Source: Streptantibioticus cattleyicolor NRRL 8057 = DSM 46488
GTDB taxonomy: Bacteria > Actinomycetota > Actinomycetes > Streptomycetales > Streptomycetaceae
DNA length: 64,000 bases
NCBI RefSeq assembly: GCF_000240165.1
Contig: NC_017586.1
Location: forward strand, 5,965,228 to 6,029,227
Direction of reading: 5' to 3'
The translations under genes were made by a program, and so were the position numbers. The notes beneath the pieces were generated by a model. The model made no database searches and was not told the DNA's origin. It saw nothing but the letters and a program-made list of their open reading frames with translations. Positions 40,514 to 59,531 of the stretch are shown here, piece by piece. Positions within the stretch are counted from its first letter, which is position 1. Each line of letters starts with the position of its first letter.

Positions 40514-41053
40514 ATGCCGGGCAGCCCGCCCCTGCCGCGACATCCCTGGAGCGCCGTCGTGGATGCGAAGAACCGCTTTGAGACAAAGGTCACCTTCCGG
40601 CTCTCCAGACTGGAATGGCTGACCGCGCTCGTGATTTCGCTGGTGCTCGCCTACCGCCATCTGACCGACATCCGCTGGCCGGTCTTCGCCGGGCTGTTCG
40701 CGGGAATCGACGCCATCGGCTACCTGCCCGGCGCGATCGCCTTCCGGCGCAGCTCCGACGGGCGGATCGGCCGCGGTTACTACGTGGCCTACAACCTCAT
40801 GCACAGCCTGGTGACCGCCACCGCGATCGCCGCCGGCTGGGCGCTGCTGGTGAAACCGGAATGGGCGCTGCTCGCGCTGCCGATCCATCTCATGGGCGAC
40901 CGGGCGCTGTTCGGGAATTCCCTCAAACCGTTCGGCATCTCCTTCGAACCGGAAAAGCACCCGGCCTACACGGAATTCGAGCGCCATTACCGTACGGCAC
41001 CGACCGGTGCCCGCCGTGACCTCGCGGAGGGCGCCGATGCCGTCCGTGCTTGA
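40514..41053 (+). CDS. Small integral membrane protein, first gene of the putative azoxy/fatty-amine operon
   Basis: This is a 179-residue protein with three or four hydrophobic helices (WLTALVISLVLAYRHL, WPVFAGLFAGIDAIGYLPGAIAF, MHSLVTATAIAAGWALL, WALLALPIHLMGDRALFG). A hydrophilic tail rich in Glu, His and Pro follows. I do not recognise it by family. Its gene overlaps the next by 17 bases, so it is coupled to the DUF2156 transferase. The valanimycin cluster also encodes a small membrane protein (VlmO, as I recall) beside a tRNA-dependent transferase, which makes a comparable role conceivable. The start could alternatively be a GTG near 40559. Confidence 0.65.
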   Translation: MPGSPPLPRHPWSAVVDAKNRFETKVTFRLSRLEWLTALVISLVLAYRHLTDIRWPVFAGLFAGIDAIGYLPGAIAFRRSSDGRIGRGYYVAYNLMHSLVTATAIAAGWALLVKPEWALLALPIHLMGDRALFGNSLKPFGISFEPEKHPAYTEFERHYRTAPTGARRDLAEGADAVRA

Positions 41054-41999
41054 CACCCTCGCCGTGCACAGCGACAACCCCAGCGCGTTCCTGGCGCTCA
41101 ACAGCGGCAACGAATACTTCCAGGACGGCCGTTTCGACGGCGCGTGCGCCTACCTGAAGTCCGGGCGCCACGTGTTCCAGTTCGGCGGGCCGTTCGCCGC
41201 CGAGGGCGACCGCGCCGCGCTGCTCGACGCGTTCGCCGAACACTCCGGCCGCCGGCTCGTCGCCGTCCAGCTGCAACGCGACGACGCCGAGCTGTACGCG
41301 GCACGCGGCTTCACCGTCAACCAGCTCGGCGCCTCCTACGCCGTCGACCTCACCCGCTTCACCCTGCGCGGCTCACCCTTCGTACGGCTGCGCAACAAGA
41401 TCTCCCGGGCCCGCCGCGCCGGGCTGGAGGTCACCGAGGCCGAGGTCGGCGACGACACCGCCGAGCTGGACGCCATCGACCGGTGCTGGCTGCGGGACAA
41501 GGGCGGACACGCCAAGGAGCTGCGCTTCCTGGTCGGCCAGCGCACCGGTCCGCTCCAACGCCACCGGCGGCTCTTCGTCGGCCGCATCGACGGCTCGGCC
41601 GTGTGCTACATCAACTACTCCCCGGTCTTCGGCAGCCGACCCGGCTGGCTGCACGACCTGAGCCGGCGGCGGCCCGACGCGCCCCCCGGGGTGATGGAGG
41701 CCGTCAACGCCACCGCCATCGAGCGGATGACCGAGGAGGGCGCCGGCTGGCTGCACTTCGGCTTCACCCCCTTCACCGGCCTCGACCCGGCCTGCGAACT
41801 CCCCGGCGCCAGCCGCACGTTCGCCCGCGTGGTACGGCTGCTGGCCGAGCACGGCAAGGCCGTCTACCCGGCCGCCAGCCAGCTCGACTACAAGGAGAAG
41901 TGGGCCCCGCACGCCGTACTGCCGGAGTACATCGCCTTCCGCGGCCGGCCCAGCCTGACCGCGGTGCTCCGCCTGCTGCGCGCCACCAACGCGCTGTGA
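41037..41999 (+). CDS. DUF2156/LPG-synthase-like aminoacyl-tRNA-dependent transferase
   Basis: This is a 320-residue soluble protein with the double-GNAT fold of DUF2156, the C-terminal domain of lysyl-phosphatidylglycerol synthase (MprF). There is no membrane domain, so it probably aminoacylates a small molecule rather than acting as a full flippase-synthase. Typical segments are LRNKISRARRAGLEVTEAEV, VCYINYSPVFG, and the C-terminal YPAASQLDYKEKWAPHAVLPEYIAF. The stand-alone homologue VlmA moves serine from seryl-tRNA to isobutylhydroxylamine in valanimycin biosynthesis. The neighbouring oxygenase and flavin reductase support an analogous step. GGAGG precedes the ATG. Confidence 0.8.
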   Translation: MPSVLDTLAVHSDNPSAFLALNSGNEYFQDGRFDGACAYLKSGRHVFQFGGPFAAEGDRAALLDAFAEHSGRRLVAVQLQRDDAELYAARGFTVNQLGASYAVDLTRFTLRGSPFVRLRNKISRARRAGLEVTEAEVGDDTAELDAIDRCWLRDKGGHAKELRFLVGQRTGPLQRHRRLFVGRIDGSAVCYINYSPVFGSRPGWLHDLSRRRPDAPPGVMEAVNATAIERMTEEGAGWLHFGFTPFTGLDPACELPGASRTFARVVRLLAEHGKAVYPAASQLDYKEKWAPHAVLPEYIAFRGRPSLTAVLRLLRATNAL

Positions 42000-42104
42000 C
42001 CCGCGCGGCGGCCGGCCCCGCCCACCGCCGCCGGCCGCCCCGGGGCCCCAGGTCGCCCAAGGCCCTTCAGCCCATGGTCCCCACTGCCGGAAGGACGTCC
42101 GGTT

Positions 42105-43244
42105 ATGCGATTCCTCGACCGCGAACGCACCGCGTTGGCCAAGCTCCTGCCCGACCTGGACGCCGGGCTGCGGGAAGTGCCGCTGATGGAGCTGGAACGC
42201 CCGCGCAGCCCCGGTATCGAGCTGTTCCGGGCCGGCGGCGGCCCCGGGCTGCTGGTGCCCGAGTCCCACCAGGGCAAGGGGGCCACCGCGCTGGACGCGC
42301 TGCGGGTGCAGCGGGCCATCGGCGCTCGTTCCCCGTCGCTGGCGGTGGCCACCACCATGCACCACTTCTCCATGGCCACCCTGGTCGGCCTCGGGGACGG
42401 CAACAGCGGCGACGGACTGGAGTGGATGCTGATCGAGGGGGTGGCGGCGGGCAACCGCATCGTCGCCTCCGGCTTCGCCGAGGGACGCCCCGGCACCGGC
42501 ATCCTCGACCCCACCATGACCGCCCGGGTCACCCCGGACGGGGTGCGCATCAGCGGCGTCAAACGCCCGTGCAGCCTGGCCCGTTCCATGGACCTGCTGA
42601 CCGCCAGCGTCATGGTGCCGCGCGAGGACGGCCAGGGCGAGGAGCTGGCGGTGGCGCTGGTGCCCGCCGACAGCGAAGGGCTCACCGTCAGCGACTTCTG
42701 GTCCAGCTCCTTCCTGGCCGGCGCCGAGAGCGAACAGGTCACCCTCACCGACGTCGTCGTCCCGCCGGAACTGCTGGTGCGCACCGCCGCCCCGGCCGGA
42801 CAGCAGCTCGACGACCTCCAGACCGCCGGCCTGGTCTGGTTCCAGATGCTGATGACCGGCAGCTACCTCGGCGCCGCCAGCGCCGTGGTGGAACGGGTGC
42901 TGCTCAACGAGAAGATCCCCGAGCACGAGCGGGTGCGGCTGCTGGTGGAGACCGAGGGCGCGATGGCCGCCGCCGAGGGCATCGCGCGCCGGGTGGACGA
43001 GGGCGGCCCGGACGAATCCACCCTCGTCGACGCCCTGTTCGTGCGCTACACCGTGCAGGACACCATCGCCCGGGTGGTCCCGCGCGCGGTGGAACTCCTC
43101 GGCGGGCTCAACTTCATGACCTCCGACGAGATCGGCCACCTGGCCGCCTGCGCCCACGGGCTCGCCCTCCACCCGCCGTCCCGCGCCCGGATGACCGGCC
43201 CGCTCGCCGACTACCTCGCCGACCGGCCGCTGTCCATCGCCTGA
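42105..43244 (+). CDS. Acyl-CoA dehydrogenase-fold flavoprotein, likely amine N-hydroxylase
   Basis: This is a 379-residue protein with the acyl-CoA dehydrogenase fold (an N-terminal helical domain, a middle beta domain with ASGFAEGRPGTG, and C-terminal helices). The dehydrogenase signature near the C-terminus that carries the catalytic Glu (Y-E-G-T-x2-I-x-R) is absent; the protein ends ...HPPSRARMTGPLADYLADR. That loss fits the flavin-dependent monooxygenase branch. This branch includes isobutylamine N-hydroxylase (VlmH) and DszC-like enzymes, which take reduced flavin from a partner. Such a reductase is encoded at 46251. Proposed role: N-hydroxylation of an alkyl amine made by the next two gene products. 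Confidence 0.8.
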   Translation: MRFLDRERTALAKLLPDLDAGLREVPLMELERPRSPGIELFRAGGGPGLLVPESHQGKGATALDALRVQRAIGARSPSLAVATTMHHFSMATLVGLGDGNSGDGLEWMLIEGVAAGNRIVASGFAEGRPGTGILDPTMTARVTPDGVRISGVKRPCSLARSMDLLTASVMVPREDGQGEELAVALVPADSEGLTVSDFWSSSFLAGAESEQVTLTDVVVPPELLVRTAAPAGQQLDDLQTAGLVWFQMLMTGSYLGAASAVVERVLLNEKIPEHERVRLLVETEGAMAAAEGIARRVDEGGPDESTLVDALFVRYTVQDTIARVVPRAVELLGGLNFMTSDEIGHLAACAHGLALHPPSRARMTGPLADYLADRPLSIA

Positions 43245-43326
43245 CCCCACGCCCGCGCCCGGCCGCCGCACACCGTCCCGCCCGCGGCACCGGGCCACAC
43301 CGCGAACCCGCAGGGGGAACCACACC

Positions 43327-44448
43327 ATGTCCACGTACCCGTTGCGTCCCACCACCGCGTCACCCCACCCGGCGCCCGGCCGCCGGCGCCCCACCCTGCT
43401 GCTCACCGGCGGCTCCGGGGTGCTCGGCCGGGCGCTGATCGACGAACTCGTCCGCGACTTCGACCTGGTCTGCCTGCGCCACCACCGGCCGCTGGCCGAC
43501 CCCCGGGTCCGCGAGGTCGGCGCCGACCTGGTCGCCCCCGGTCTCGGGCTCACCGCCCGCGAGCGCTACCAGCTCGCCACCGAGGTGGACGTGGTCCTCC
43601 ACTCCGCCGCCCAGACCAACTGGCGCACCCCGCCCGAGGACATCTGGCACACCAACACCCAGGGCACCGCCGGCCTGCTGGAGCTGGCCGCCCGCGCCGA
43701 CGCGCCGTTCTACTACATGAGCACCGCCTTCGTCGCCAGCGAACTGGGCCAGGAGGACCGGGAACGCTTCCCCGGCGCCGCCGCCTACCTCGCCTCCAAG
43801 ACCGCGGCCGAACAGATGGTGCGCGACAGCGGGCAGCCCGGCGCCATCCTGCGCCCCTCCGTCGTCATGGGCGACTCCGGCACCGGCCGGATCGCCGGCC
43901 AGCAAGGGCTCACCAAGGCGCTCGGCGCCATCGTCCTCGGCCAGGTGCCGGTGCTGCCGGGCGCCCCGGAGGCCCGGGTGGACATGGTGCCGCAGGACTT
44001 CGTGGCCCGCGCCACCGGCGACCTGGTCCGGGCCGGCGTCACCGGCGGCGAGTACTGGCTGACGGCCGGCAAGGAGGCACCGCTGCTGCGCGAAGTGGTC
44101 GAGGTCTGCCAGGAGTTCGCGGTCGACAACGGGCTGCCCAAACCTCCCTCGCCACGGCTGATCCCGGTCGAGGCGGTGCACCGGCTGCTGCTGCCGATGC
44201 TGGAGGGCACCGCGCTGCCCGAGACGATGCGCAAGCGCTTCCGCTACTACGCCGAACTGCTGCTGGTCTTCCAGCGGGAGCTGCCCTTCGACTCCTCGAT
44301 GGGCGTCGACGGCATCGGCCGGCGCCCCAGCCACGCCGCGATCCGCGCCGCGCTGCGCCGCAACGTGGACAGCTGGGCCGAGGGCAGGCCCGGACTGCTC
44401 GACCGCCGGGTCGCGGCCGGCGCCGGGGTGCGGGAGATGGCCTCGTGA
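43327..44448 (+). CDS. Thioester-reductase-like SDR
   Basis: This is a 373-residue extended short-chain dehydrogenase of the NAD_binding_4/fatty acyl reductase type. The nucleotide loop is TGGSGVLG (residues 27-34) and the catalytic pair is Y154 and K158 in YLASK. VLHSAAQTNW and the TQGTAGLLELA helix are typical. Stand-alone reductases of this kind convert acyl thioesters to aldehydes. The stop overlaps the aminotransferase GTG (GTGA), an arrangement suited to acyl thioester, then aldehyde, then amine. There is no attached adenylation or carrier domain, so the thioester must come from elsewhere. Confidence 0.85.
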   Translation: MSTYPLRPTTASPHPAPGRRRPTLLLTGGSGVLGRALIDELVRDFDLVCLRHHRPLADPRVREVGADLVAPGLGLTARERYQLATEVDVVLHSAAQTNWRTPPEDIWHTNTQGTAGLLELAARADAPFYYMSTAFVASELGQEDRERFPGAAAYLASKTAAEQMVRDSGQPGAILRPSVVMGDSGTGRIAGQQGLTKALGAIVLGQVPVLPGAPEARVDMVPQDFVARATGDLVRAGVTGGEYWLTAGKEAPLLREVVEVCQEFAVDNGLPKPPSPRLIPVEAVHRLLLPMLEGTALPETMRKRFRYYAELLLVFQRELPFDSSMGVDGIGRRPSHAAIRAALRRNVDSWAEGRPGLLDRRVAAGAGVREMAS

Positions 44449-45734
44449 GCGCCCCCGTCCGCCCCGCCGCCGTACCCGCACCGGCCGCGGCCGGCGAACC
44501 GCGGCCCGACGTCGCCGAGTTGTACCGCCGCCACCTCGGCAGCGGCCGGGCCGTGATGGGCACCGTACTGGGCGGCATGGCCGAGGTCGGCTCCGGCGGG
44601 CCGTGGGTCCACACCGACGACGGCCGCCGCTTCCTGGACTTCGGCGGCTACGGGGTCTTCCTGCTCGGCCACCGCCACCCGGCCGTGGTCGCCGCCGTCC
44701 ACCGGCAGATCGACACCCACCCGCTGGCCACCCGGGTCTTCCTGGAACCGGTGGCCGCCCACGCCGCCGAGGCGCTGGCCGCCCACACCCCGCCCGGACT
44801 CGACCACATCCACTTCGTCAACTCCGGCGCCGAGGCCACCGAGACCGCGCTCAAGCTCGCCCGGGCCGGCGGCCACGACGCCATCGTCACCACCCGCGGC
44901 GGCTTCCACGGCAAGACGTTCGGCGCGCTCAGCGTCACCGCCAACCCCAAGTACCAGGAGACGTTCCGGCCACTGCTCCCCGGCGTCACCGAGGTGACCC
45001 ACGGCGACGCCGCCGAACTCGCCGCCGTGCTCGCCCGGTTGGGGGAGCGCGCCTGCTTCGTGCTGGAACCGGTGCAGGGCGAGGGCGGGGTACGCATCCC
45101 GCCCCCCGGCTACCTCGCCGAGGTCGCCGCGCTCTGCCGCCACCACGGCGCCTTCCTGATCGTCGACGAGATCCAGACCGGCATGGGCCGCCTCGGCAGC
45201 TGGTGGGGGGTGGACGCCGAACAGGTGGCGCCGGACGCGCTGCTGATCGGCAAGGGGCTCAGCGGCGGCGTCGTCCCGGTGGCCGCCGTGGCCGCCACCA
45301 AGGAGGCGTACGCCCCCTTCAGCCGCGACCCGTACCTGCACACCTCCACCTTCGGCGCCTCCCCGATCGCCTGCGCCGCCGCGCTCGCCACCGTGCGGAC
45401 CATGGTGCGCGAGGAGACCGTGGCCCGCGCCGCCGCGCTCGGCGAGCGGCTGCTGGCCGGGGTACGGCAGGTGTGCGCGCCCCACCTCGGCACGCTCGTG
45501 CGCGAGGTACGCGGCAAGGGGCTGCTGATCGGCATCGAGTTCCACCGCGAACAGGCGGTCGGCGAACTCGTCCTGGAGATGGTCGGCCGCGACGTGCTGG
45601 TCAACCACTCGCTCAACTCCACCACCGTGCTGCGGCTGACCCCGCCCGCCGTGGTGGACGACGCCGCGGTGGAGCTGTTCCTGACCACCTTCGCCGACGC
45701 GCTGCGCGTCACCGCGGCCCGGCTGCCCGGCTGA
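44445..45734 (+). CDS. Class III PLP-dependent aminotransferase
   Basis: This is a 429-residue fold-type I aminotransferase of the acetylornithine/putrescine class. The motifs are FVNSGAEATETALKLAR, GGFHGKTFGALSVT, the cofactor-holding IVDEIQTGMGR, and the Schiff-base Lys270 in LLIGKGLSGGV. The enzyme probably aminates the aldehyde formed by the reductase encoded just upstream, giving a primary alkyl amine. It is translationally coupled to that gene by a four-base overlap. Confidence 0.92.
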   Translation: MSAPVRPAAVPAPAAAGEPRPDVAELYRRHLGSGRAVMGTVLGGMAEVGSGGPWVHTDDGRRFLDFGGYGVFLLGHRHPAVVAAVHRQIDTHPLATRVFLEPVAAHAAEALAAHTPPGLDHIHFVNSGAEATETALKLARAGGHDAIVTTRGGFHGKTFGALSVTANPKYQETFRPLLPGVTEVTHGDAAELAAVLARLGERACFVLEPVQGEGGVRIPPPGYLAEVAALCRHHGAFLIVDEIQTGMGRLGSWWGVDAEQVAPDALLIGKGLSGGVVPVAAVAATKEAYAPFSRDPYLHTSTFGASPIACAAALATVRTMVREETVARAAALGERLLAGVRQVCAPHLGTLVREVRGKGLLIGIEFHREQAVGELVLEMVGRDVLVNHSLNSTTVLRLTPPAVVDDAAVELFLTTFADALRVTAARLPG

Positions 45735-45799
45735 ACTCGCCGCAGCACGCCGTCCCCGCCGCCCACCCGGCGGCCCACCGCACCCCAGAAAGGCACACC

Positions 45800-46279
45800 A
45801 TGCGCCATGTGGTCCTGCACGCGATGGCCCACGCGCTGCAACCAGCCGCGGCCTACGAGCGCATCAGCGACTTCCGCCGGTACCCCGAACTCACCGACAC
45901 CGTACGGGAGGTGCTCGTCCAGGCACCGCTGCCGGACGGCTCGGTGGTCTCCGAGTGGACCGTCTCGTTCCGCAACGGGCTGATGCGCTGGCGGGAACGG
46001 GACGCGTTCTCCCCCGAGACGCTCTCCATCACCTTCGAACAGCTCACCGGCGACTTCGAGGTCTTCAACGGCAGCTGGCACTGCGCCCCCCGGGACGGCG
46101 GCACCCTGATCACCTTCGCCGCCGACTTCGACCTGGGCATCCCCACCCTGTCCGAGATCATCGACCCGGTCGCCGAATCCACCCTGCGCACCAACATCGC
46201 CCGCATCCTGCACGGGCTGACCGGCGCCGAGATCGTCGAGGAGGCGCAGGGTGAACCCGCCGTCGCCGCTCGTGGCTGA
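45800..46279 (+). CDS. SRPBCC (START-like/polyketide cyclase fold) protein
   Basis: This is a 159-residue protein of the SRPBCC superfamily: an N-terminal strand and helix with AYERISDFRRYPELTDTV, then a seven-strand sheet, and a long C-terminal helix. It resembles aromatase/cyclase and coenzyme Q-binding START proteins that hold hydrophobic ligands. In a cluster handling long-chain intermediates it may carry or orient a lipid-like substrate. The gene ends 29 bases inside the flavin reductase gene. Confidence 0.82.
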   Translation: MRHVVLHAMAHALQPAAAYERISDFRRYPELTDTVREVLVQAPLPDGSVVSEWTVSFRNGLMRWRERDAFSPETLSITFEQLTGDFEVFNGSWHCAPRDGGTLITFAADFDLGIPTLSEIIDPVAESTLRTNIARILHGLTGAEIVEEAQGEPAVAARG

Positions 46280-46847
46280 GGCCGCCACCGGCCACCGTCC
46301 GGCCACCGCGGCGGACGGACCCGGCTGGGACCCGCTGGACGCCGAGCCGGGCCCCGACGCCGCCCGCTGCCTCGGGCTGTACGCCAAACTCGCGGCCGGT
46401 GTCACCGTGGTCACCGCCCGAGGCCCGGACGGACCGCTGGGCATGACGGTCTCCGCCGTCACCTCGCTCTCCGCCCGCCCGCCGCTGCTCCTGGCCTGCC
46501 TGCGCAACGGCTCCCGCACGCTGACCGCCATCCGCGGCAACGGCTCCTTCGCGGTCCACCTGCTGCGCGAGGAGCAAAGCGGCCTCGCCGCCCGGTTCGC
46601 CGACCCCGCCGCCACCGCCGCCGAACGGTTCGCCGGCGCCCAGGGCCGCCAGGTGCTCGGCGTCCCGGTGCTCTCCGGCGCGCTGGCGTGGACCGTCTGC
46701 CTCCTGTCCGACGTGCGGCGGTACGGCGACCACCACCTGGTGGTCGGGCGGGTGGCCGCGGTCCACGTGGGCGGCGGGCGCCCGCTGCTGTGGCACGACC
46801 GCCGCTTCGGCACGCTCACCGGCGCCACGGGGGGCGAGGCCGGATGA
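46251..46847 (+). CDS. Flavin reductase family protein
   Basis: This is a 198-residue FMN-binding split-barrel flavin reductase, like VlmR, HpaC and the small components of two-component monooxygenases. The family pattern is LAAGVTVVTARGPDGPLGMTVSAVTSLSARPPLLLACL, then NGSFAVHLL. It should supply free reduced flavin to a partner, most likely the acyl-CoA-dehydrogenase-fold oxygenase encoded at 42105. The halogenase-like protein at 53599 could also use it. Starts with GTG inside the SRPBCC gene and overlaps the next by ATGA. Confidence 0.9.
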   Translation: MNPPSPLVAEAATGHRPATAADGPGWDPLDAEPGPDAARCLGLYAKLAAGVTVVTARGPDGPLGMTVSAVTSLSARPPLLLACLRNGSRTLTAIRGNGSFAVHLLREEQSGLAARFADPAATAAERFAGAQGRQVLGVPVLSGALAWTVCLLSDVRRYGDHHLVVGRVAAVHVGGGRPLLWHDRRFGTLTGATGGEAG

Positions 46848-48178
46848 CCCCAGCCCCGGACGGCACCCCCTGCTGGGTGCCGGACGACGGCGGCCCGGCG
46901 CTGTCCCCGCTGCCTGCCGTGACCGGCGAGACCGGCGCCGACGTCACCGTCGTCGGCGCCGGTCTCGCCGGGCTCTCCACCGCCTACCACCTCGCCCACC
47001 GCGCCCCGGGGCTGCACATCGCCGTGGTCGATGCCGGCCACCCCGGGGCCGGCGCCAGCGGCCGGGGCACCGGGCTGCTCGGACCGCGCGCCGGCCCCGC
47101 CGTGGACGTCGCGGTCCGCCGCTACGGCCCGGCCACCGCGCGCCGGATGTACCAGGCGAGCCTGCGCGCGGTGGCCGACGTCCTCGACCTGTGCGACCGC
47201 CTCGGGGTGCGCCGAGGGGTCCGCCCCGGAGAGCAACTGGTGGCCACCCGCTCGCCCGGCGGACTCATCGCGCTGACCCGGCAGGCCGACGCCTACCGCG
47301 CCCTCGGCCTCGACGTGCCGGTGCTCACCCGCACCGCGCTGCGCCGCCGCCTCGAACCGCCGTACACCGCCGCCCTGTTGTACCGCGACGCCGCCACCCT
47401 CGACCCGGCCGCGCTCACCCGCGCCCTCGCGACCGCCTGCGCCGCCAAGGGGGTGCACCTGTACGGCGCCAGCCCGCTGCGCGAGGTGCGCGCGGGACGT
47501 CCCGGCGGCACGCGGCTGGTCTTCCCGCACGGCACCGTGCGCACCGGGCAGGCCGTGCTCGCCGTCGGCGCCGCCGCCGCGGCCGGGGCGCCGGTCGGCA
47601 CGGTGCTGCCGTTGCAGGTCTACGCCATCGCCACCGCGCCGCTGCCGCCCGCCGCCCGCAAGGCGCTGGGCGGCGGCGCCCTCTCGGTGGTGGACGCGAT
47701 GCCGCTCGCCCCCTACTTCCGGCTGCTGCCGGACGGCGGCCTGGTGGCCGGCGGCGGCACCGTCACCCACCTCCCGGACCCGGACGCCCGCCACGCGGAC
47801 CGGGCCCGCGGGCGTGCCTGGGCCTGGCTGGCCGGCTGGGTCCGCGGACTCCACCCCGAACTCGCCGGGGTACCGGTGACCCACCGCTGGGCCGGCCGCA
47901 TCGGCCACACCCTGGACGGCCTGCCGGTGGTCGGCCCGGTGCCCGGCCGGCCCGGGGTGTGGTACGTCGGCGGCTGCTGCGGCCACGGCCTGGCGATGTC
48001 GGTCGCGCACGGTGCCCACCTGGCCGGCGAACTGCTCGGCGAGGGCTGCCCGGAGCCGGGCGGACCGCTGCCCTGGCACCGTTCCCGCGCCCCCCGCCTG
48101 CCGCTGCCCGCCCCGGCCCGTCCGCTGCTGCGCGCCGCGCTGGCCACCGCGGGCCGCGCCGCCCGGCGCAACTGCTGA
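46844..48178 (+). CDS. DAO-type FAD-dependent oxidoreductase
   Basis: This is a 444-residue flavoprotein of the D-amino acid/glycine oxidase (DadA/ThiO) family. It has an N-terminal FAD loop VVGAGLAGLSTAYHLA, a GASGRGTGLLGPRAG segment, and the C-terminal FAD-contacting IGHTLDGLPVVGPVPGRPGVWYVGGCCGHGLAMS. Such enzymes oxidise C-N bonds, and some act on N-hydroxy or hydrazine-like substrates. A role in oxidising an N-N or amine intermediate is possible but unproven. Its ATG overlaps the flavin reductase stop. Confidence 0.88.
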   Translation: MTPAPDGTPCWVPDDGGPALSPLPAVTGETGADVTVVGAGLAGLSTAYHLAHRAPGLHIAVVDAGHPGAGASGRGTGLLGPRAGPAVDVAVRRYGPATARRMYQASLRAVADVLDLCDRLGVRRGVRPGEQLVATRSPGGLIALTRQADAYRALGLDVPVLTRTALRRRLEPPYTAALLYRDAATLDPAALTRALATACAAKGVHLYGASPLREVRAGRPGGTRLVFPHGTVRTGQAVLAVGAAAAAGAPVGTVLPLQVYAIATAPLPPAARKALGGGALSVVDAMPLAPYFRLLPDGGLVAGGGTVTHLPDPDARHADRARGRAWAWLAGWVRGLHPELAGVPVTHRWAGRIGHTLDGLPVVGPVPGRPGVWYVGGCCGHGLAMSVAHGAHLAGELLGEGCPEPGGPLPWHRSRAPRLPLPAPARPLLRAALATAGRAARRNC

Positions 48179-48240
48179 GCGCCCCCGGCCACTTCGACCC
48201 ACCCGACCCGGCGAAACCGGCAACCAGAGAGCGAGCCGCG

Positions 48241-49479
48241 ATGCACCCACAGCCCCGCACCGCACGGACCGTGCCGCTCGGCGCGGCGGACCTGGCCTTC
48301 CTGGAAAGCGGCGGGGAGAAGACGCTGCCCACCGTGTTCATGCTCAACTTCGCCGGTCCGCCGCCCACCCTGGACGCGCTGCGCGCCCGGGTCGCCGAAC
48401 GCGCCGGGCGCGTCCCGGTGCTCGGCTGCCGGGTCACCACCTCCCGCCGGGCGCTGGAACGCGTCGAGCGCCTCGACCTCACCCGCCACGTCCGCGAACT
48501 GTCGCTCCCCGGCCCGCTGGACGACGGGCACATCGCCACCCGGATGCTCTCCCGCCCGCTGCCCGGTCTCGACGGACCCCCCTGGGACCTGTGGCTGGTG
48601 CACGGCACCGAGGGCGGCTACCGGGTCGTGCTGCGGGCGCCGCACGCCCTCCAGGACGGCGCGGGCGCCGCGCACACCGTCCGCGCGCTGCTCGCCGACG
48701 AACCCGGCGGCGGGCCGCCCGCGCACCGTCCCTCCCGGCCCCGGGCCCGCGGCTTCCTGGACACCCTCGGATACGTCGCCGCCGCCTTCCGCGACGCGGG
48801 CCCCATGCCCGCGTTCGCCGCCCGCCCCACCGGGGTCACCGAGGTCTGCCACGTCGACACCCCGGTGGCCCGGCTGCGCGCCATCGGCCGGGCGGTCGGC
48901 GGCAGCGTCAACGACGTCTACCTCGCCGCGCTCGCCCACGCCGTGCACACCTGGCACGCCAAGGAGAACGGCGCCGTCCATCCGCCGCTGCCGGTCGTGG
49001 TGCCGATGTCGGTGCGCCGGGCGGGGGAGGAACACGCCCCGGGCAACCGGATGGTCACCGCCCGGCTGCTGCTCCCGTGCGACCAGGACTCGCCGTTCGG
49101 CGCGCTGGCCGCGGTGATGGCACGCACCGCCCGGCTGCGGCGCAGCGGACAGCGGGACGCCACCCGGCTGCTGATGACGGCCACCCCGCGGCGGATCGCG
49201 GCCAACCTCGGCAAGCGCATGGTGCACGGCTCGACGGTGGCCGCGGTCACCAGCGGCGTCAACCTCGGCGACCCGTTCACGTACCAGGGCGATCCGGTGG
49301 TCAACGCGGCCGTGTTCACCGACGCCATCGCCGGCGTGATGTGCGTGGCCGTCCTCACCGGCTGCGGCGGCAACGCCCGGTTCACCTTCGTCCACGACCG
49401 GGCGCTGCCCACCGCCGACGAGATCCCCGACCTGTGGCTGGCGTCGCTGCTGGAGCTGGACAAGGCGCACACCGGCTGA
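48241..49479 (+). CDS. WS/DGAT-family acyltransferase-like protein
   Basis: This is a 412-residue protein resembling wax ester synthase/diacylglycerol acyltransferases: MVxLGAADLAFLESG at the start, the active-site region RAPHALQDG, and C-terminal SGVNLGDPFTYQGDPV. The usual HHxxxDG reads PHALQDG, so the first His is Pro but the catalytic His135 and Asp139 remain. It probably transfers an acyl group to an alcohol or amine. It is the last gene of the operon before a perfect 21-bp terminator stem. Confidence 0.82.
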   Translation: MHPQPRTARTVPLGAADLAFLESGGEKTLPTVFMLNFAGPPPTLDALRARVAERAGRVPVLGCRVTTSRRALERVERLDLTRHVRELSLPGPLDDGHIATRMLSRPLPGLDGPPWDLWLVHGTEGGYRVVLRAPHALQDGAGAAHTVRALLADEPGGGPPAHRPSRPRARGFLDTLGYVAAAFRDAGPMPAFAARPTGVTEVCHVDTPVARLRAIGRAVGGSVNDVYLAALAHAVHTWHAKENGAVHPPLPVVVPMSVRRAGEEHAPGNRMVTARLLLPCDQDSPFGALAAVMARTARLRRSGQRDATRLLMTATPRRIAANLGKRMVHGSTVAAVTSGVNLGDPFTYQGDPVVNAAVFTDAIAGVMCVAVLTGCGGNARFTFVHDRALPTADEIPDLWLASLLELDKAHTG

Positions 49480-49491
49480 CGCGCGGCGGGC

Positions 49492-49537
49492 CGACGCGAA
49501 GGTCCCGGGGCGATCACGCCCCGGGACCTTCGCGTCG
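49492..49537. terminator. Perfect 21-bp stem hairpin between convergent operons
   Basis: Bases 49492-49512 pair without mismatch with 49517-49537 around the loop ATCA. The hairpin lies 12 bases after the acyltransferase stop and 6 bases before the methyltransferase stop. It will terminate both converging transcripts and is the strongest hairpin I found in the window. Confidence 0.9.
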
Positions 49538-49543
49538 CAGCGC

Positions 49544-50395
49544 TCATCGCACGCCGGTGACCAGGAAGACCACCTTGGCCGCACCGGCCTTGGTCAGGAA
49601 CGGCAGCAGCGTGGCGAACCGCTCCATGGCGTACGGCAGCGCGAACAGATCGGCGACCTGGGTGGCCCAGCCCAGCGAGCCCCACCAGTTGACCGGGTCA
49701 CCGATCTGCCAGTGCCACCCCAGCCCGCGCGAGGCCAGCGACGTCAGGAACGGCGCCACGAACGGCGAACCGGCGGCCCGCGCGTTGACGCACTCGGCGG
49801 AGAACGTACTGCCCGGCGCGGAGAGCGCCGCCATCACCGCGGCCACCGCGGCCACCTGGTCCGGCTCGCGGAAGTACAACGGGCTCTCGCACAGCCACGC
49901 CGTGGGCCGCGCGGGGTCGAACCCGGCGGCGATCAGCGCCGGCCCCCAGTCGGCCGCCAGGTCCGCCTCGACCACCGTGCGCTCCGCCCGGGGCGGACGC
50001 CGCCCGCCCAGCACCCGTTCCTTCAGCGCGAAGACCGACGCGTCGTCCACCTCGAACACCCGCACCCCGTCCGGCCACTCCAGCCGGAAAGCCCGGGCGT
50101 CGAGGCCGGCGCCGAGCAGCACCACCTGGCGCCGCCCGGTCTCCGCCGCGGCCAGCAGGAAGTCGTCGAAGAACCGGGTGCGCACCACCATCCAGTCCGG
50201 CAGCAGCTGCTGCAACGGCCCGTTCCCGGGCGGCCCCCCGGTGAACCCGGCCGCCGCCAGGAACTCGGCGGCCCACGGATCGTGCACCAACGGCGTCGGG
50301 CGGTTCGCCTCCTGGGCGTGCGCGCCCGCCGTCCACAGTGCCTCCGGGCGGATCAGGATCTCCGGTGGCGACAGGGGTACGGGGCTCTCCGGCAT
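49544..50395 (-). CDS. Leucine carboxyl methyltransferase-like SAM methyltransferase
   Basis: This is a 283-residue member of the LCMT/PPM1-like methyltransferases common in actinobacteria. The SAM-binding loop is VVLLGAGLDARAFRLEWP, the acidic motif is VFEVDDASVFALKERVL, and WLCESPLYF follows. Family members methylate carboxyl groups or serve in specialised metabolism. If the neighbouring operon makes a product with a free serine carboxylate, this would be a suitable O-methyltransferase. That link is inferred only from position. It is the last gene of a minus-strand series. Confidence 0.85.
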   Translation of the reverse strand: MPESPVPLSPPEILIRPEALWTAGAHAQEANRPTPLVHDPWAAEFLAAAGFTGGPPGNGPLQQLLPDWMVVRTRFFDDFLLAAAETGRRQVVLLGAGLDARAFRLEWPDGVRVFEVDDASVFALKERVLGGRRPPRAERTVVEADLAADWGPALIAAGFDPARPTAWLCESPLYFREPDQVAAVAAVMAALSAPGSTFSAECVNARAAGSPFVAPFLTSLASRGLGWHWQIGDPVNWWGSLGWATQVADLFALPYAMERFATLLPFLTKAGAAKVVFLVTGVR

Positions 50396-50440: not shown

Positions 50441-51994
50441 TCAGCGCGCGCCCCGGCGGCCGGCCATCAGGGCCAGCGCGCCCAGCGCGAACATGCCGAC
50501 CGACGGCCGGACGGGACGCTGACCGCCCTTGGCCGCCGGCGTACGCGGCTCGTGCACCTGCAAGGCGAGCTGCCGGTTGGACAGATCCGCCAGCACGCTG
50601 CGCATCTGCTCCGGGCCGGCGACCGCGGCCAGCATCAACTCCATCGTGGTCCGGGCGATCTGGGCGCCGGAGAACAACTCCCTGGTCAGCGAGCGCAGGA
50701 TGCCCGGCACCTCGCCCTTGAACACCTCCGGCAAGGTGATCTCCGGTGCCAGGCAGCGCACCGAACCGTCCAGGTTGGCGAAGGACTTGCCCAGCAGCGA
50801 GACCGCCGGCGGCGAGCCGATCCCGCGCCGGGACGCCTTCTGCAGCACCGTGGTGAGCGACACCCCGAAGTTGAGGTCCTCCAGCGACAGATGGGACACC
50901 TTCGGCACGAAGGCGGCCATGTCGGCGGCGAACGCCGGCATGTCCGACCACGCCGTGATCCGTCCCATCTCCGCCCAGTGCTGGGCCAGTCCGTGACCGT
51001 CGTTCTGCGCCAACGTCATGAACAGCGGCAGCAGTTGCAGGCTGGTGCGCCGGTCCAGCCGGCCCACCATGCCCCAGTCGATCAGGGTGGCCGGGCCGCC
51101 GGGCGCCGCGAAGACGTTGCCGGCGTGCGGATCGGCGTGGAAGACCCGGTCGACGAAGTAACCGCGGTACATGAAGCGCAGCAGGTCCCGGCCGATCTCG
51201 ATGCGCTCGGAGTCGGTGAACAGACCGCGGTCGAGATGGCGTACGGAGACCCCGGGCGCCAGCGACTGCACCAGCACCCTGGGGGTGGCGTGCACCACCC
51301 GGGGCACCGACAGGGTGCGATAACGGCGCACATGGGCGCGTGCCTCGTCCATGTTGCGCGCCTCGCCGGTGAAGTCCAGCTCCGGCTCCATCGCGTCGAA
51401 GACCGCGCCGAGCATCGCCTCGACGTCGATGACCTCGTTGAACCGGGGCGCCACCTTCGCCAGGACGCGGGAGGCCCGGCGCATCATGGCCATGTCGGCG
51501 AAGACGCTCTCGCGGATCCCGGGCCGCTGGATCTTCACCACCGCGGCGCGTCCCCCCGGCAGCACGACCCGGTAGACCTGGGCGAGCGAGGCGGCGCCCA
51601 GCGGGGCGAGGGTGTCGATGTCGTCGAAGCGCAGTTTCCAGTCGGGCCCCAGGTCCCGGGCGAGCACCGGCTCGAAGACCGAGAACGGCTGGACGTCCAC
51701 CTGGTCGTGGAGGTTCTGCAACTCGGCCCGGACCGCCTCGGGCACCATGTCGGGCCGGGTCGACAGGATCTGACCGAGTTTCACATAGAACGGACCGAGG
51801 CTCTCCAGCGCGTGGCGCACCGCCTTGGCGCGCCGCTGGTCGGCCCCGGCGGCGGCTTCCTCCGCCTCCGCCGGGGCCCGGTCGTCCCGCTTCGCCCGCC
51901 GGCGTTCGCGCGTCACCTGGCCGACCTCGTCGCTGACGAGACTGCCCAGGACCTTCACCACCACACGCAGCCGATCGCCGACAACAGACGCCAC
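50441..51994 (-). CDS. ABC1/AarF/UbiB-family atypical kinase
   Basis: This is a 517-residue UbiB/ADCK-type protein. It has the family N-terminal KxGQ motif (YVKLGQILSTRPD), a nucleotide-binding stretch (LAPLGAASLAQVYRVVLPGGRAAVVKIQRPG), and kinase-like catalytic residues in HADPHAGNVF and ATLIDWGMVG. A hydrophobic C-terminal helix may bind membranes. The family supports quinone and other isoprenoid-lipid pathways. Here it lies in a minus-strand series with the phasin-like and methyltransferase genes. Confidence 0.92.
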   Translation of the reverse strand: MASVVGDRLRVVVKVLGSLVSDEVGQVTRERRRAKRDDRAPAEAEEAAAGADQRRAKAVRHALESLGPFYVKLGQILSTRPDMVPEAVRAELQNLHDQVDVQPFSVFEPVLARDLGPDWKLRFDDIDTLAPLGAASLAQVYRVVLPGGRAAVVKIQRPGIRESVFADMAMMRRASRVLAKVAPRFNEVIDVEAMLGAVFDAMEPELDFTGEARNMDEARAHVRRYRTLSVPRVVHATPRVLVQSLAPGVSVRHLDRGLFTDSERIEIGRDLLRFMYRGYFVDRVFHADPHAGNVFAAPGGPATLIDWGMVGRLDRRTSLQLLPLFMTLAQNDGHGLAQHWAEMGRITAWSDMPAFAADMAAFVPKVSHLSLEDLNFGVSLTTVLQKASRRGIGSPPAVSLLGKSFANLDGSVRCLAPEITLPEVFKGEVPGILRSLTRELFSGAQIARTTMELMLAAVAGPEQMRSVLADLSNRQLALQVHEPRTPAAKGGQRPVRPSVGMFALGALALMAGRRGAR

Positions 51995-52068
51995 CGTGGC
52001 GAGCCTCCTTCGCGGTCGAGTTCACTTGCGCCCGGTGGTCGCTCCGGGCGGGACACCGTCGGCCGGGG

Positions 52069-52638
52069 TCAGACCTGGGGCGGCTGGCCGGGCTGGCCGG
52101 GCTGGGCCGGCCCGCCGACCCCCGGGATGCGCTGCACCAGTGAGGTGAGCTGCGCCACCATGTCCACCAGCTGGTTGAACTTCTGCGGCAGCGTGGCCAG
52201 CGCCTGCACCGACTCGCCGAGCCCGGCGACCGTCTGCCCGGCGCTGCCGGCCAGGTGGCCCACCTGTCCGAGGGCGCCCAGCGGGTTGGCGGCGCCGGCC
52301 AGCGCCCCCAGCGGGTTGCCCGCGCCGCCGAGCGCGGCGAGCGGGTTGGCCGCCGAGGCGGCGCCGGAGGCGGCCTGGCCGGCCAGCGCGGTCAGCGGGG
52401 CCGCGGCCCCGGCCACCGACGCCAGCGGGTTGGCGCCGAGCGCGGTGAGCGCGCCCACCACGTTCTGCGGCAGCCCGGCCATCGACTGCAGGGCGTTCGC
52501 CCCGGACTGGTTCTGACCGCCGATCGCGCTGGTCGTGCCCGCTCGGTTCAGGATTTCGTCGAAGGCCAGCTTGTAGCTGTCCGTAATGTTGCCGATGAAG
52601 TCCTTGATGGTTTCCTGCGTGTTTTTGTTCGATGCCAT
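52069..52638 (-). CDS. Low-complexity phasin-like protein
   Basis: This is a 189-residue protein. A short helical N-terminus (TQETIKDFIGNITDSYKLAFDEIL) precedes about 100 residues of Ala/Gly/Leu-rich repeats built on GANPLxxxxGAA and NPLGALAG. A second helix follows (KFNQLVDMVAQLTSLVQRI), then a Pro/Gln tail. The repeats suggest an amphipathic coat or assembly role, as in granule-associated phasins. I do not recognise a specific family. GAAGGAAC precedes the ATG at 52638. It is flanked by an ECF sigma gene and the AarF gene on the same strand. Confidence 0.65.
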   Translation of the reverse strand: MASNKNTQETIKDFIGNITDSYKLAFDEILNRAGTTSAIGGQNQSGANALQSMAGLPQNVVGALTALGANPLASVAGAAAPLTALAGQAASGAASAANPLAALGGAGNPLGALAGAANPLGALGQVGHLAGSAGQTVAGLGESVQALATLPQKFNQLVDMVAQLTSLVQRIPGVGGPAQPGQPGQPPQV

Positions 52639-52729
52639 GGGACAAGTTCCTTCCGGGCTGTTTTCTGGTCCCGCGCAATAAATCCCGGGCGGACCGGGAC
52701 CCACTGTGCGGAAGGGGTTCCGCCGGCGG

Positions 52730-53257
52730 TTATCCAGTGGCGCCTTCCAATGCCTTCGCGCAGGCCATCCGAAGTCGTGCCCGACCTCGGGTGAACGCGC
52801 CTTCCGCCGCCTTCACGGAAATCTTGTGGATGCGGGCGAACTCCGCCGTGGAAATGCCGTCGGCGCGCGCCAGTATTACCTGCTGTTCCCTTCCCCGCAG
52901 GAGCTGCGCCTGTTGGAGCAGCCATCTGCCGAAATCCTCGTCGCACACGCCCTCCTCGGGGGTCTCCGGTTCGTCCACCACGGCGGCCCGTTGCAGCAGC
53001 CGCTTGCGGCGGTCCTGGTCGCGGTAGAAGTCGATGCACAGCCGCATCGCCACCGAGGTCAGGAAGGGGCCGAGGCGCTGACGGTCCAGCGTGGTGTGGG
53101 CGGCGGCACGCATCATGGTCTCCTGAACGCAGTCCTCGGCATCCGCGGAATTCGGCAGTCTTCGGCGTACCAGACGCATGAGACGCTCCTGATGCTGGAA
53201 GATGTCCTCCCAGGAGCATTCGGCGGGGGACCGGCGTGCGGGGTTTCGCAACTCCAT
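52730..53257 (-). CDS. ECF-type RNA polymerase sigma factor
   Basis: This is a 175-residue sigma-70-family factor with regions 2 and 4 only. Region 2 is visible as HQERLMRLVRRRLPNSADAEDCVQETMMRAAAH with SVAMRLCIDFYRD. Region 4 has LRGREQQVILARADGISTAEFARIHKISVKAAEGAFTRGRARLR. No anti-sigma gene is adjacent. A perfect 14-bp palindrome lies 122 bases upstream of its start. It may control the phasin-like, AarF and methyltransferase genes that follow it. Confidence 0.9.
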   Translation of the reverse strand: MELRNPARRSPAECSWEDIFQHQERLMRLVRRRLPNSADAEDCVQETMMRAAAHTTLDRQRLGPFLTSVAMRLCIDFYRDQDRRKRLLQRAAVVDEPETPEEGVCDEDFGRWLLQQAQLLRGREQQVILARADGISTAEFARIHKISVKAAEGAFTRGRARLRMACAKALEGATG

Positions 53258-53379
53258 GTCAATCGTGGCCCGATGTCTCGAAAGGGCAGGATGTCCACGA
53301 CCGGTGATTCACTCCGTCGGTCGCCGGGCATTTCCTACCCGGGGTGTCGCGTCGACAAACCGTGGTCTTCCGGCTTACG

Positions 53380-53393
53380 CTCATTCGAATGAG
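53380..53393. promoter_or_regulatory. 14-bp perfect palindrome upstream of the sigma factor gene
   Basis: CTCATTCGAATGAG is a perfect palindrome in the 286-base gap between the sigma factor start and the terminator of the halogenase-like gene. Its position suggests an operator for a dimeric regulator. The same gap contains an A/T-rich patch near 53507-53520. Confidence 0.4.
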
Positions 53394-53543
53394 GTGTCCC
53401 GGGAATCGCCTCGGTGCTGTTCCGGAGGGCATCCGGAAATGTTTCCGAGAGAGCCGGTGAAATCGTCTCCCGGCGTGTATTACCGCCCCCGGCGTGGTCA
53501 TCTCTCCATATTTATTTTTCAGTCTTTCGAGGGACCTATCCGG

Positions 53544-53584
53544 CGGCAGGCCGGTGACACCGGGAAGGTGTCACCGGCCTGCCG
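53544..53584 (-). terminator. 18-bp stem hairpin after the halogenase-like gene
   Basis: Bases 53544-53561 pair perfectly with 53567-53584 around a 5-base loop. The hairpin starts 15 bases after the stop of the minus-strand flavoprotein gene. It separates that two-gene unit from the sigma factor region. Confidence 0.85.
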
Positions 53585-53598
53585 GGCCGCCACCGCAC

Positions 53599-55374
53599 TC
53601 AGCGCGGCGGCTCGCCCGTGGTACGCGGGGCCGGCTTGCGCGCCCAGTCCCGGTTCCAGTTGAACCACATGTCGCGCACCGTCTCGTTCACCAGCCGCGA
53701 GCCGTGCCGCAGCTCCGCGGCGTACGCCTGCACCGCCTCCCGGCCGACCAGCCCCGCGCCGCCGGTGAGGTACTTGCCGCGCACATGGCGCGGGGCGAAG
53801 AACTTCCCCCACACCAGCAGCTTCATCAGCGGCCACATCGTGAACGCCCGTGCCGGACACCGGTCCTCGGGGTCGAGCGTGCCCCACACCGCCGGGGAGA
53901 GCCCGCTCTCCCGCATGGCGTGGAAGAGCCTGGCCACCGTCTCCTCCCGGCTCAGCTCACCGGCCCGGTACGCCAGCATGGTGTCCCGGCACCGGGTGAA
54001 CATCTGCTCCACCCACGGGTTGTCGGCGCCCTGCAGCCCCCGGTACGGAGCCCGCTCCAGCATGGCGAAGACCGCCGGGTCCTGGGACTTCTCGAACTCG
54101 ACCGCCGCCTGGTTCTGCCCGTTGGTGCCGTACAGCGTGGTGAGCGTCCACACCCGGGTCCAGGCGTTCCACAGCTCGAAGTCGTCGAAGGAGATGTAAC
54201 TGCACGACACCAGGTCGTCGTAGAAGGCGAACATGCGCTTGATCCACACCTGGAGGTAGTCGAAGCGCTCGGTGGCGAAGTCCTGCTTGCGCACCGCGTC
54301 GATCAGCCGGTGCCCCAGCGCGTTGAGCGCCATCACCGTCACCGCCAGCCCGCTGGAGAACAGCGGGTCGATGAAGTCACTGGCGTGCGGCATCAGACAC
54401 CAGCGGTCGCCGACCACCTGGTCGGAGAAGAACTGCGTGCGGTCGGTGGCCACGTACGGCCGCACCGCCCGGGCGTTCGCGAACTGCCGCGCCACCGACG
54501 GGAACCGGCGCACGTGCTGCCAGAACTCCTCCTCCGGCGCCACCTCGGCCGGCCGCGGATAGCGCTCCATGTCCAGGTTGAGCCCCACGCTGCACAACCC
54601 GCTGGTGGACCCCGAGTGGTTGTCGAAGGGGATCACCCAGAACCATCCGCCCTCGAACAGGTGGTGCAGCGTGCCCTCGCTGAACGGGCTCGGCATCCCG
54701 TGCTGCTTGCGCGGCGGCCCCACGGTGTCGAACGGCAGCACGTTGACCATGTGGGTGTAGATGGTGCGCGACCGCGTACGGTACGGCGCCTCCTTGCGCA
54801 GCCCCAGCCGCTCCGGCAGCACGGCCCGCATCCCGCCCGCGTCCACCACGTACGACGCCTGGAAGGTGCCCTTCTCCCGGGTGACGAGGGTGACCCCGTC
54901 CTCCTCGAACTTCACGTCGTCCACCAGGGTGTGGGTGTACGCGGTCACCCCGTACTCCACGGCGACGCGGAACATGTAGGCGTCCACGTCCTGCCGGAAG
55001 TAGTGCGAGTCGGGCCCCAACGGCGGGCCCCAGGTGGGGTACTGGGTGCACTCCTTGGGCCGGGTCGGCTCCCCCTCGCGGTGGTAGACGAAGCCGAAGT
55101 TGCGCTTCACCCCGCAGTTGGAGGAGACGTTGCGGCGCAGCGCCGAGTTGGTGGCCAGGTGCTCGATCTCCGGGACGTCGTAGCGCCGGGCGAGCACCCG
55201 CAGCCCGAAGGTGGTCTCCGGCACGGTGGACTCGCCGATCGCGAACCTGGGGTGGCCGCTTCCCTCCAGCAGCAGCACCCGCACGCCATGGCGCGCCAGG
55301 ATGGCTCCCAGCATCGTCCCCCCGATGCCGCCGCCGATCACGGCCACATCGAACACACGCTGGTCGTCTTGCAT
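53599..55374 (-). CDS. Flavin-dependent halogenase-family protein
   Basis: This is a 591-residue FAD-binding protein. The dinucleotide loop is VAVIGGGIGG (residues 12-19), and the halogenase-type W-x-W-x-I-P motif appears as GWFWVIP at 243-249, followed by the FIDPLFSSGLAV segment near residue 340. These are hallmarks of flavin-dependent halogenases and close monooxygenase relatives that use reduced flavin. Lys90 in GVKRNFGF is a candidate for the halogenase active-site lysine, but I cannot align it firmly. It is preceded by the HD-domain gene with 33 bases between, so the two are probably one transcript. Confidence 0.8.
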   Translation of the reverse strand: MQDDQRVFDVAVIGGGIGGTMLGAILARHGVRVLLLEGSGHPRFAIGESTVPETTFGLRVLARRYDVPEIEHLATNSALRRNVSSNCGVKRNFGFVYHREGEPTRPKECTQYPTWGPPLGPDSHYFRQDVDAYMFRVAVEYGVTAYTHTLVDDVKFEEDGVTLVTREKGTFQASYVVDAGGMRAVLPERLGLRKEAPYRTRSRTIYTHMVNVLPFDTVGPPRKQHGMPSPFSEGTLHHLFEGGWFWVIPFDNHSGSTSGLCSVGLNLDMERYPRPAEVAPEEEFWQHVRRFPSVARQFANARAVRPYVATDRTQFFSDQVVGDRWCLMPHASDFIDPLFSSGLAVTVMALNALGHRLIDAVRKQDFATERFDYLQVWIKRMFAFYDDLVSCSYISFDDFELWNAWTRVWTLTTLYGTNGQNQAAVEFEKSQDPAVFAMLERAPYRGLQGADNPWVEQMFTRCRDTMLAYRAGELSREETVARLFHAMRESGLSPAVWGTLDPEDRCPARAFTMWPLMKLLVWGKFFAPRHVRGKYLTGGAGLVGREAVQAYAAELRHGSRLVNETVRDMWFNWNRDWARKPAPRTTGEPPR

Positions 55375-57855: not shown

Positions 57856-58326
57856 ATGGCGAAGGAGCCGACGGTGCTCAAGGGCTTCAAGAACTTCCTG
57901 ATGCGTGGCGACGTCGTGGTGGTCGCCATCGGGCTGATCACGGCGATCGCCTTCAGCACGCTGATCAAGTCGTTCACCGACGACGTGATCAACCCCCTCA
58001 TCGCCCGCGCCCAGGGCGGCCGTTCCCTCGGACTCGGCTGGCAGCTCGGCAGGCCCGGCAACCGGGCGACCTACCTGGACATCGGCTCGTTCGTCTCGAC
58101 CGTCATCTACTTCGTCATCTTCATGGCCGTGGTGTACTTCGTGATCGTGGTGCCCTACCGCCACTACCAGCAGCGCCGCGGCCTCCAGGTCTTCGGCGCT
58201 CCGGTGGCGGTCACCACCTGCCCCGCCTGCCTGTCCCCGGACATCCCGCGCGGCGCCACCCGCTGCCGGTACTGCGGCGCCGACCTGCCGCCTCACCACG
58301 CCACCGGCAACGCCGCCACGCCGTAG
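57856..58326 (+). CDS. mscL: MscL mechanosensitive channel with C-terminal zinc ribbon
   Basis: This is a 156-residue large-conductance mechanosensitive channel. The N-terminal VLKGFKNFLMRGDVVVVAIGL leads into TM1, a periplasmic loop follows, and TM2 is VSTVIYFVIFMAVVYFVIVVPY. The C-terminus has an added zinc-ribbon-like module with Cys122, Cys125, Cys137 and Cys140 (CPAC...CRYC). Classical MscL ends in a helical bundle instead. The ATG at 57856 is chosen over a GTG within the terminator hairpin. The last 34 bases overlap the convergent P450 gene. Confidence 0.88.
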   Translation: MAKEPTVLKGFKNFLMRGDVVVVAIGLITAIAFSTLIKSFTDDVINPLIARAQGGRSLGLGWQLGRPGNRATYLDIGSFVSTVIYFVIFMAVVYFVIVVPYRHYQQRRGLQVFGAPVAVTTCPACLSPDIPRGATRCRYCGADLPPHHATGNAATP

Positions 58327-59483: not shown

Positions 59484-59531
59484 CGGGCTCGCATTCGTCG
59501 GTGGGGACGATGGGGACGTGGGGACGGCCGG

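Follow-up and report, generated by a model that had tools for sequence, protein, structure and literature searches.

In valanimycin biosynthesis, the N–N bond is reported to be formed by VlmO, in which Asp51, His82, His110 and Asp114 are given as essential and likely iron-binding residues, and the resulting hydrazine is turned into the azo and then the azoxy stage by the diiron oxygenase VlmB (both statements from PMC11705231). The VlmB, VlmO and VlmR genes have been called highly conserved around VlmA in a paper whose main text leaves DAO-family oxidases unmentioned (PMC9379638). The hydrazine-forming enzyme of the Spb38–40, Tri26–28 and Apy9–11 pathways is paired with a DAO-fold oxidase, but is a cupin/MetRS-like synthetase and not VlmO; the oxidases of these pathways, Spb39, Tri27 and Apy10, reportedly act on hydrazine intermediates (PMC11705231). 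Here, we describe ten genes at positions 40559–50395 of a 64,000-nucleotide stretch of the Streptantibioticus cattleyicolor NRRL 8057 = DSM 46488 genome (NC_017586.1, positions 5,965,228 to 6,029,227), which is referred to below as the window and to which all coordinates refer. Nine of the genes lie on the plus strand and are followed by one convergent gene on the minus strand. The probable product of the operon is a long-chain lipid built by the VlmO route and derived from a hydrazine; a flavoprotein would replace VlmB in the oxidation that follows hydrazine formation. N–N biosynthesis of the VlmO type is already known and the DAO exit is the new part; in the open-access literature searched, we found no description of a VlmO cluster in which a DAO replaces VlmB.

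Judged by sequence, four genes of the operon are homologues of the aliphatic-azoxy machinery: VlmO, VlmA, VlmH and VlmR. The first gene (40559–41053, plus strand) encodes a small membrane protein without any Pfam or NCBIfam match, for which the most likely start is GTG 40559, giving 164 residues. All 19 aligned relatives have the aspartate at this start, and the residue before it is Met (ten sequences) or Val (nine), i.e. a possible ATG or GTG start. In a script comparison counted from this codon, Asp51, His82, His110 and Asp114 fall exactly on the VlmO residue numbers, and all four are invariant across the 19 aligned sequences, that of the window included. Because the ligand numbering is identical and the four residues are invariant, the protein is taken as a homologue of the N–N bond former VlmO. 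A preliminary description of this DNA had recognized the membrane protein, but had placed its start near 40514 and had missed its VlmO identity; the ten genes that it listed, with their order and strands, all agree with the coordinates and the Pfam and NCBIfam matches.

The next two genes (both plus strand) encode a DUF2156 protein (41037–41999; PF09924, 200.7 bits), a predicted aminoacyl-tRNA-dependent transferase, and a predicted flavin-dependent amine N-hydroxylase with the acyl-CoA-dehydrogenase fold (42105–43244). Two family models were used, each with the window protein among its member sequences. The model of VlmA-like proteins found near VlmO genes gives the DUF2156 protein 564 bits, and the VlmH-like model gives the 42105 protein 623 bits. 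On the former, the four further PF09924 proteins encoded by the genome reach 15–45 bits, and on the latter the genome's own PF02770 proteins (those among the 23 PF02770 matches that score at all) reach at most 38 bits. These differences rule out a phospholipid aminoacylase for the DUF2156 protein and a true acyl-CoA dehydrogenase for the 42105 protein, the two groupings that the preliminary description had set against its proposal. The VlmH homologue has a sub-threshold match to PF02770 only (26.3 bits, cut-off 33.3), and the solved structures that score best against it are the DszC flavin monooxygenases. The VlmR homologue is a flavin reductase (46251–46847, plus strand; PF01613, 133.6 bits). 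Among the closest known systems is locus L120 of Streptomyces atratus JCM 3386, which carries VlmB; from the species, and from the listing of ElaO of elaiomycin biosynthesis from S. atratus (PMC11705231), we infer L120 to be the elaiomycin locus. It shares with the window homologues of VlmO (61.7% identity), VlmA (53.9%), VlmH (45%), VlmR (34% over 141 residues), the class III aminotransferase (54%) and the SRPBCC protein (39%). The family models, PF01613 and these identities of 34–62% bear out both the VlmA-, VlmH- and VlmR-like enzymes and the kinship with azoxy clusters proposed earlier.

VlmB was not found in the operon or in the whole genome of the strain, which is 100% complete, when searched for with a 14-row alignment of ferritin-like VlmB-type proteins at E 1e-6. 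After the flavin reductase, the window lineage has instead the gene of a DAO-fold FAD oxidase (46844–48178, plus strand; PF01266, 180 bits). With VlmB missing and a flavin oxidase in its place, a related but different N–N lipid is probable. The same search found no VlmB in 18 of 21 genomes, namely the window genome and 17 of the 20 others; 20 of the 21 have a DAO-type locus and one (G179) has a locus cut by a contig end. The VlmB gene stands beside a second VlmO gene in one of the three exceptions (G059) and far from VlmO or on another contig in the other two (G378 and G241). Besides a DAO-type locus, these last two genomes (loci L073, L161, L188 and L189) have a second VlmO locus, in which the VlmO frame contains one TGA; their VlmB gene and a VlmH-like gene are located far away or on a different contig.

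Two samples of VlmO-bearing loci, which share genomes, extend this comparison. The named sample comprises the best 80 of 220 named VlmO relatives, and the family sample comprises all 66 non-self match regions fetched after the VlmO homologue had been searched for in 394 genomes of the family (61 positive, including this genome). Among the named loci, 39 have DAO only, 30 have VlmB only, none has both and 11 have neither; of these eleven, several are truncated at the end of a contig and three have DAO matches that score 173–285 bits. A family-model scan of the 66 family loci gave VlmB only in 40, DAO only in 19, both in none and neither in seven; in L183 and L184 the flavin reductase and DAO lie past the fetched stretch, which corrects the counts of DAO, VlmB, both and neither to 21, 40, 0 and 5. 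Thus, the DAO and VlmB locus sets do not overlap. No double carriers were seen where 11.5 were expected, with a hypergeometric p of 4e-11 that ignores kinship and so overstates the evidence. A 126-row tree of VlmO, VlmH and VlmA, with labels from both samples, requires at least six changes between DAO and VlmB. A 54-row representative tree requires seven switches, or four without seven long or odd rows, and its well-supported branches alone force four switches, or two without those rows. VlmO–DAO pairs also occur outside Streptomycetaceae, in the Gram-negative Paraburkholderia saeva (L131) and in Rhodococcus ruber (L129), with divergent DAO proteins that are 34–35% identical to that of the window. 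Five loci (L109, L112, L113, L116 and L118) have the order VlmO, VlmA, SRPBCC, VlmR, DAO, and VlmH, the thioester reductase and the aminotransferase are all missing from their 20 kb. On the VlmB side, L151 (12617–13807) and, with the same family, L143 and L144 encode an O6-methylguanine methyltransferase DNA-binding domain joined to an HhH-GPD repair domain, which suggests self-protection against an alkylating product.

The AlphaFold model of the DAO protein (pLDDT 82.7) superposes on glycine oxidase (4ysh) with a Z of 37.2 and an r.m.s.d. of 2.6 for 354 aligned residues, or most of the chain. It also matches other oxidases of N-substituted amino acids and has the glycine/sarcosine/imino-acid oxidase fold; the VlmO hydrazine would itself be an N-substituted amino acid. 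As hydrazine intermediates are the reported targets of Spb39, Tri27 and Apy10, DAO chemistry on a hydrazine has precedent.

The remaining plus-strand genes encode a fatty-amine module and an acyltransferase. A thioester-reductase-like SDR (43327–44448; PF07993, 132.1 bits; TIGR01746 below cut-off) and a class III aminotransferase (44445–45734; PF00202, 298.9 bits; the best NCBIfam model, putrescine aminotransferase, is below cut-off) support the front end from thioester through aldehyde to amine that was proposed in the preliminary description. The SRPBCC protein (45800–46279; PF03364, 63.4 bits), which may carry or bind the long-chain amine intermediate, has a predicted structure of the START/polyketide cyclase fold type (pLDDT 90.8). 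Its gene and that of the aminotransferase are both present in 64 of 81 loci, both lacking in ten and discordant in seven, irrespective of the oxidase, so the SRPBCC gene belongs to the fatty-amine module. It was found in 70 of the 81 loci, 23 of them VlmB-type, which rules it out as a novelty of this cluster. Of the three extra genes named earlier as pointing to a new variant, only the other two stand: by their distribution, the DAO oxidase and the WS/DGAT-like acyltransferase are the real departures.

The acyltransferase gene (48241–49479; PF03007, 53.8 bits; TIGR02946 below cut-off) is present in 24 of the 80 named loci, all DAO-type. The usual WS/DGAT motif is HHxxxDG; the family found here keeps H-x-x-x-D-G in 25 of 25 members and has Asp, Glu or Pro at the preceding position. 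In the same 24 of 80 loci, DAO is followed by the WS/DGAT-like gene and then by the convergent gene (49544–50395, minus strand) of a carboxyl methyltransferase (PF04072, 160.3 bits; TIGR00027, 223.6 bits). Weaker PF04072 relatives occur in two VlmB-type loci as well, and the close relatives share the locus set of DAO and WS/DGAT. Ady1-like enzymes are assigned to PF04072, and Ady1 itself methylates the azodyrecin carboxylate (PMC9379638), which favours retention of the amino-acid carboxylate. In other DAO loci, the place of the WS/DGAT-like and PF04072 genes is taken by a P450-type gene and by genes for a small methyltransferase and for a protein that matches no Pfam family.

Four pairs of neighbours overlap in the operon (end/start 41053/41037, 44448/44445, 46279/46251 and 46847/46844) and the remaining gaps are 62–105 nt. 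The operon is not a chance assembly, as the complete ten-gene order recurs in 24 of the 80 named loci and 12 of the 66 family loci; carriers include S. tendae (L088), S. hyderabadensis (L089), S. parvulus (L090), S. griseoviridis (L094), S. coelicoflavus (L095) and S. ardesiacus (L106).

The described systems differ from this order in distinct ways. L120 has VlmB, two ketosynthase-type genes, a desaturase-like gene, an aldehyde-dehydrogenase-type gene, a SARP-type regulator and an FkbM-type methyltransferase that the window operon lacks, whereas DAO, the thioester reductase, WS/DGAT and the PF04072 gene were not seen in its 20 kb. The azodyrecin (ady) clusters share the fatty-amine front end, the VlmA, VlmH, VlmR and VlmO homologues and the PF04072 methyltransferase Ady1, but have the VlmB homologue Ady8 and a putative desaturase, Ady9, and neither DAO nor WS/DGAT is mentioned in the main text (PMC9379638). 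The valanimycin (vlm) cluster shares VlmO, VlmA, VlmH and VlmR, and differs in VlmB, VlmJ, VlmK, VlmL and a valine-derived amine (PMC9379638; PMC11705231), families that are not among the Pfam matches of the operon. Two VlmB-type loci, L111 (Solihabitans fulvus) and L102 (a metagenome-assembled genome called Corynebacteriales), share the order VlmO, VlmA, VlmH, thioester reductase, aminotransferase, SRPBCC and a PF04072 methyltransferase but have VlmB upstream of VlmO and VlmJ-like DAGK/YegS kinases. L111, whose tailoring is valanimycin-like, also carries a VlmK-like MmgE/PrpD protein, lacks DAO and WS/DGAT, and has no detected flavin reductase in 20 kb. Both fall with the window in one supported clade, and of the VlmB rows L111 has the shortest path to the window.

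Starting from the observed homologies, the gene order, the lack of a detectable VlmB and the mutual exclusion of DAO and VlmB, we infer the following chemistry for this strain. By homology to characterized enzymes, the thioester reductase would free a fatty aldehyde from its acyl thioester and the class III aminotransferase would convert it to the primary amine, which the VlmH/VlmR-like pair would oxidize to the N-alkylhydroxylamine. The VlmA-like transferase would then place an aminoacyl group from aminoacyl-tRNA on the hydroxylamine oxygen, and the VlmO-like membrane enzyme would rearrange the ester to an N-alkyl-N'-(1-carboxyalkyl)hydrazine. We newly propose that the DAO takes two electrons from this hydrazine to give an azo compound or its hydrazone tautomer. 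The PF04072 enzyme may then methylate the carboxylate and the WS/DGAT-like enzyme may acylate a hydroxyl or a nitrogen, in a tailoring order that is presumed, while binding of the hydrophobic amine intermediates may fall to the SRPBCC protein.

Several observations weigh against an oxidation of the VlmO hydrazine by the DAO in place of VlmB. In a phmmer alignment, the window DAO does not keep the residues aligned with certain arginines of glycine oxidase that we take to be carboxylate-binding, so its substrate would bind differently. The high family-model scores are partly by construction, given that the models include the window proteins; the identities to L120 are unaffected. Independent pairs on supported branches number four and are nearly always all opposite, and the sign test (median p 0.125) is not significant. 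Of the five family loci with neither oxidase, L047 and L161 run into contig ends, and L073 and L161 come from genomes with VlmB elsewhere, but L061 and L179 (with L185 and L186) are VlmO loci with no VlmB or DAO in the extended stretches; post-hydrazine oxidation may therefore be dispensable or encoded elsewhere. The comparison with hydrazine synthetases covered 20 genomes rich in MetRS matches and the loci of 19 weaker matches; five of these 19 MetRS-like loci have a DAO protein, and none of the five scores above 39 bits on the DAO family model. They include those of L246, beside a cupin–MetRS fusion (39 bits), and L247 (32 bits), both in loci with an N-oxygenase. With the sequences of Spb39, Tri27 and Apy10 outside the comparison, these scores rule out the window DAO as a close relative of the MetRS-linked ones. 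On the A3 model, DAO proteins outside VlmO loci reach up to 222 bits, against at least 348 among the VlmO-linked ones listed. Tblastn with one MetRS protein gave no convincing MetRS-like gene near 20 of the DAO matches outside VlmO loci (best E 1.0), and when plasmid records were searched by tblastn for the DAO protein, there was no match at E 1e-30. From this distance, the pairing of a DAO with a hydrazine former seems to have arisen separately in VlmO loci and in hydrazine-synthetase pathways.

The same distance bears on the main alternative role for the enzyme, in which the DAO would cleave the amino-acid half off the hydrazine by C–N oxidation and hydrolysis, and the WS/DGAT-like enzyme would acylate the freed alkylhydrazine to an alkylhydrazide of the hydrazidomycin or geralcin kind. 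Apy10, of the DAO family, is reported to cut a hydrazine at its Cα–N bond, releasing pyruvate and a free hydrazine (PMC11705231), natural N-alkenyl-N-acyl hydrazides exist, with a biosynthesis called unclear in 2019 (PMC6344404), and the H-xxx-DG acyltransferase was found in DAO loci only. We nevertheless regard this outcome as unlikely: the window DAO is distant from the hydrazine-synthetase-linked ones, the conserved methyltransferase of the Ady1 family suggests that the carboxylate is kept, and S. atratus, cited as a hydrazidomycin producer, has a VlmB-type VlmO locus (L120), which makes a hydrazidomycin-type product less likely.

An azoxy lipid, the product first proposed for this DNA, could still be reached if the DAO formed the azo compound and oxygen were added by VlmH/VlmR or by an oxygenase elsewhere. 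The core genes are those of azoxy clusters, and two adjacent P450 genes lie 8–10 kb off in the window (58293–60701, minus strand), past an Na/H exchanger gene and outside the conserved block. However, an azoxy product is not supported, as VlmB was not found in the operon or, at E 1e-6, in the genome and the DAO and VlmB locus sets do not overlap; no P450 belongs to the ten-gene block conserved across 24 named relatives, and we saw no evidence for VlmH acting on azo groups, which together make this route quite improbable. That the DAO serves another step such as precursor supply, with the pathway ending at the hydrazine or its acylated form, would fit the L061 and L179 loci without either oxidase, and transporter genes neighbour two of the nearest non-VlmO DAO genes (L224 and L231), with an aldehyde dehydrogenase gene next to one of the two as well. 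Exclusion of DAO and VlmB over several switches would not be expected of an unrelated step, and we think this very improbable. Somewhat favoured over the whole of the evidence is a second, flavin-based exit from the VlmO hydrazine that has been swapped with VlmB several times and that would lead not to azoxides but to lipids of the azo, hydrazone or hydrazide kind; the window cluster, with its acyltransferase and carboxyl methyltransferase, would be one widespread version, with a product class that appears undescribed.

Beyond the operon, positions 50441–55374 (minus strand) encode an ABC1-kinase-like protein, a small protein, a sigma-70-region-2 protein and a Trp-halogenase-like flavoprotein. 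None of the 80 named loci has a family member of the three that the gene caller called, so these genes appear to lie outside the cluster; PF04820 has been named as frequent near some VlmA groups (PMC9379638). Upstream, positions 26864–30697 (plus strand) encode a 1277-residue protein with AMP-binding, carrier and hexapeptide-repeat matches. This is the architecture that we take to be typical of ε-poly-lysine-synthetase-like enzymes.

To our knowledge, few enzymes oxidize hydrazines selectively. A diiron VlmB and an amine-oxidase-type flavoprotein in otherwise matching operons provide a natural comparison set, with one upstream chemistry and two exits. For genome mining, VlmA together with VlmH need not mean an azoxy compound. 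The operon may also give access to the origin of natural hydrazides or hydrazones, which is unclear, and its distribution predicts a family of N–N lipids across many Streptomyces.

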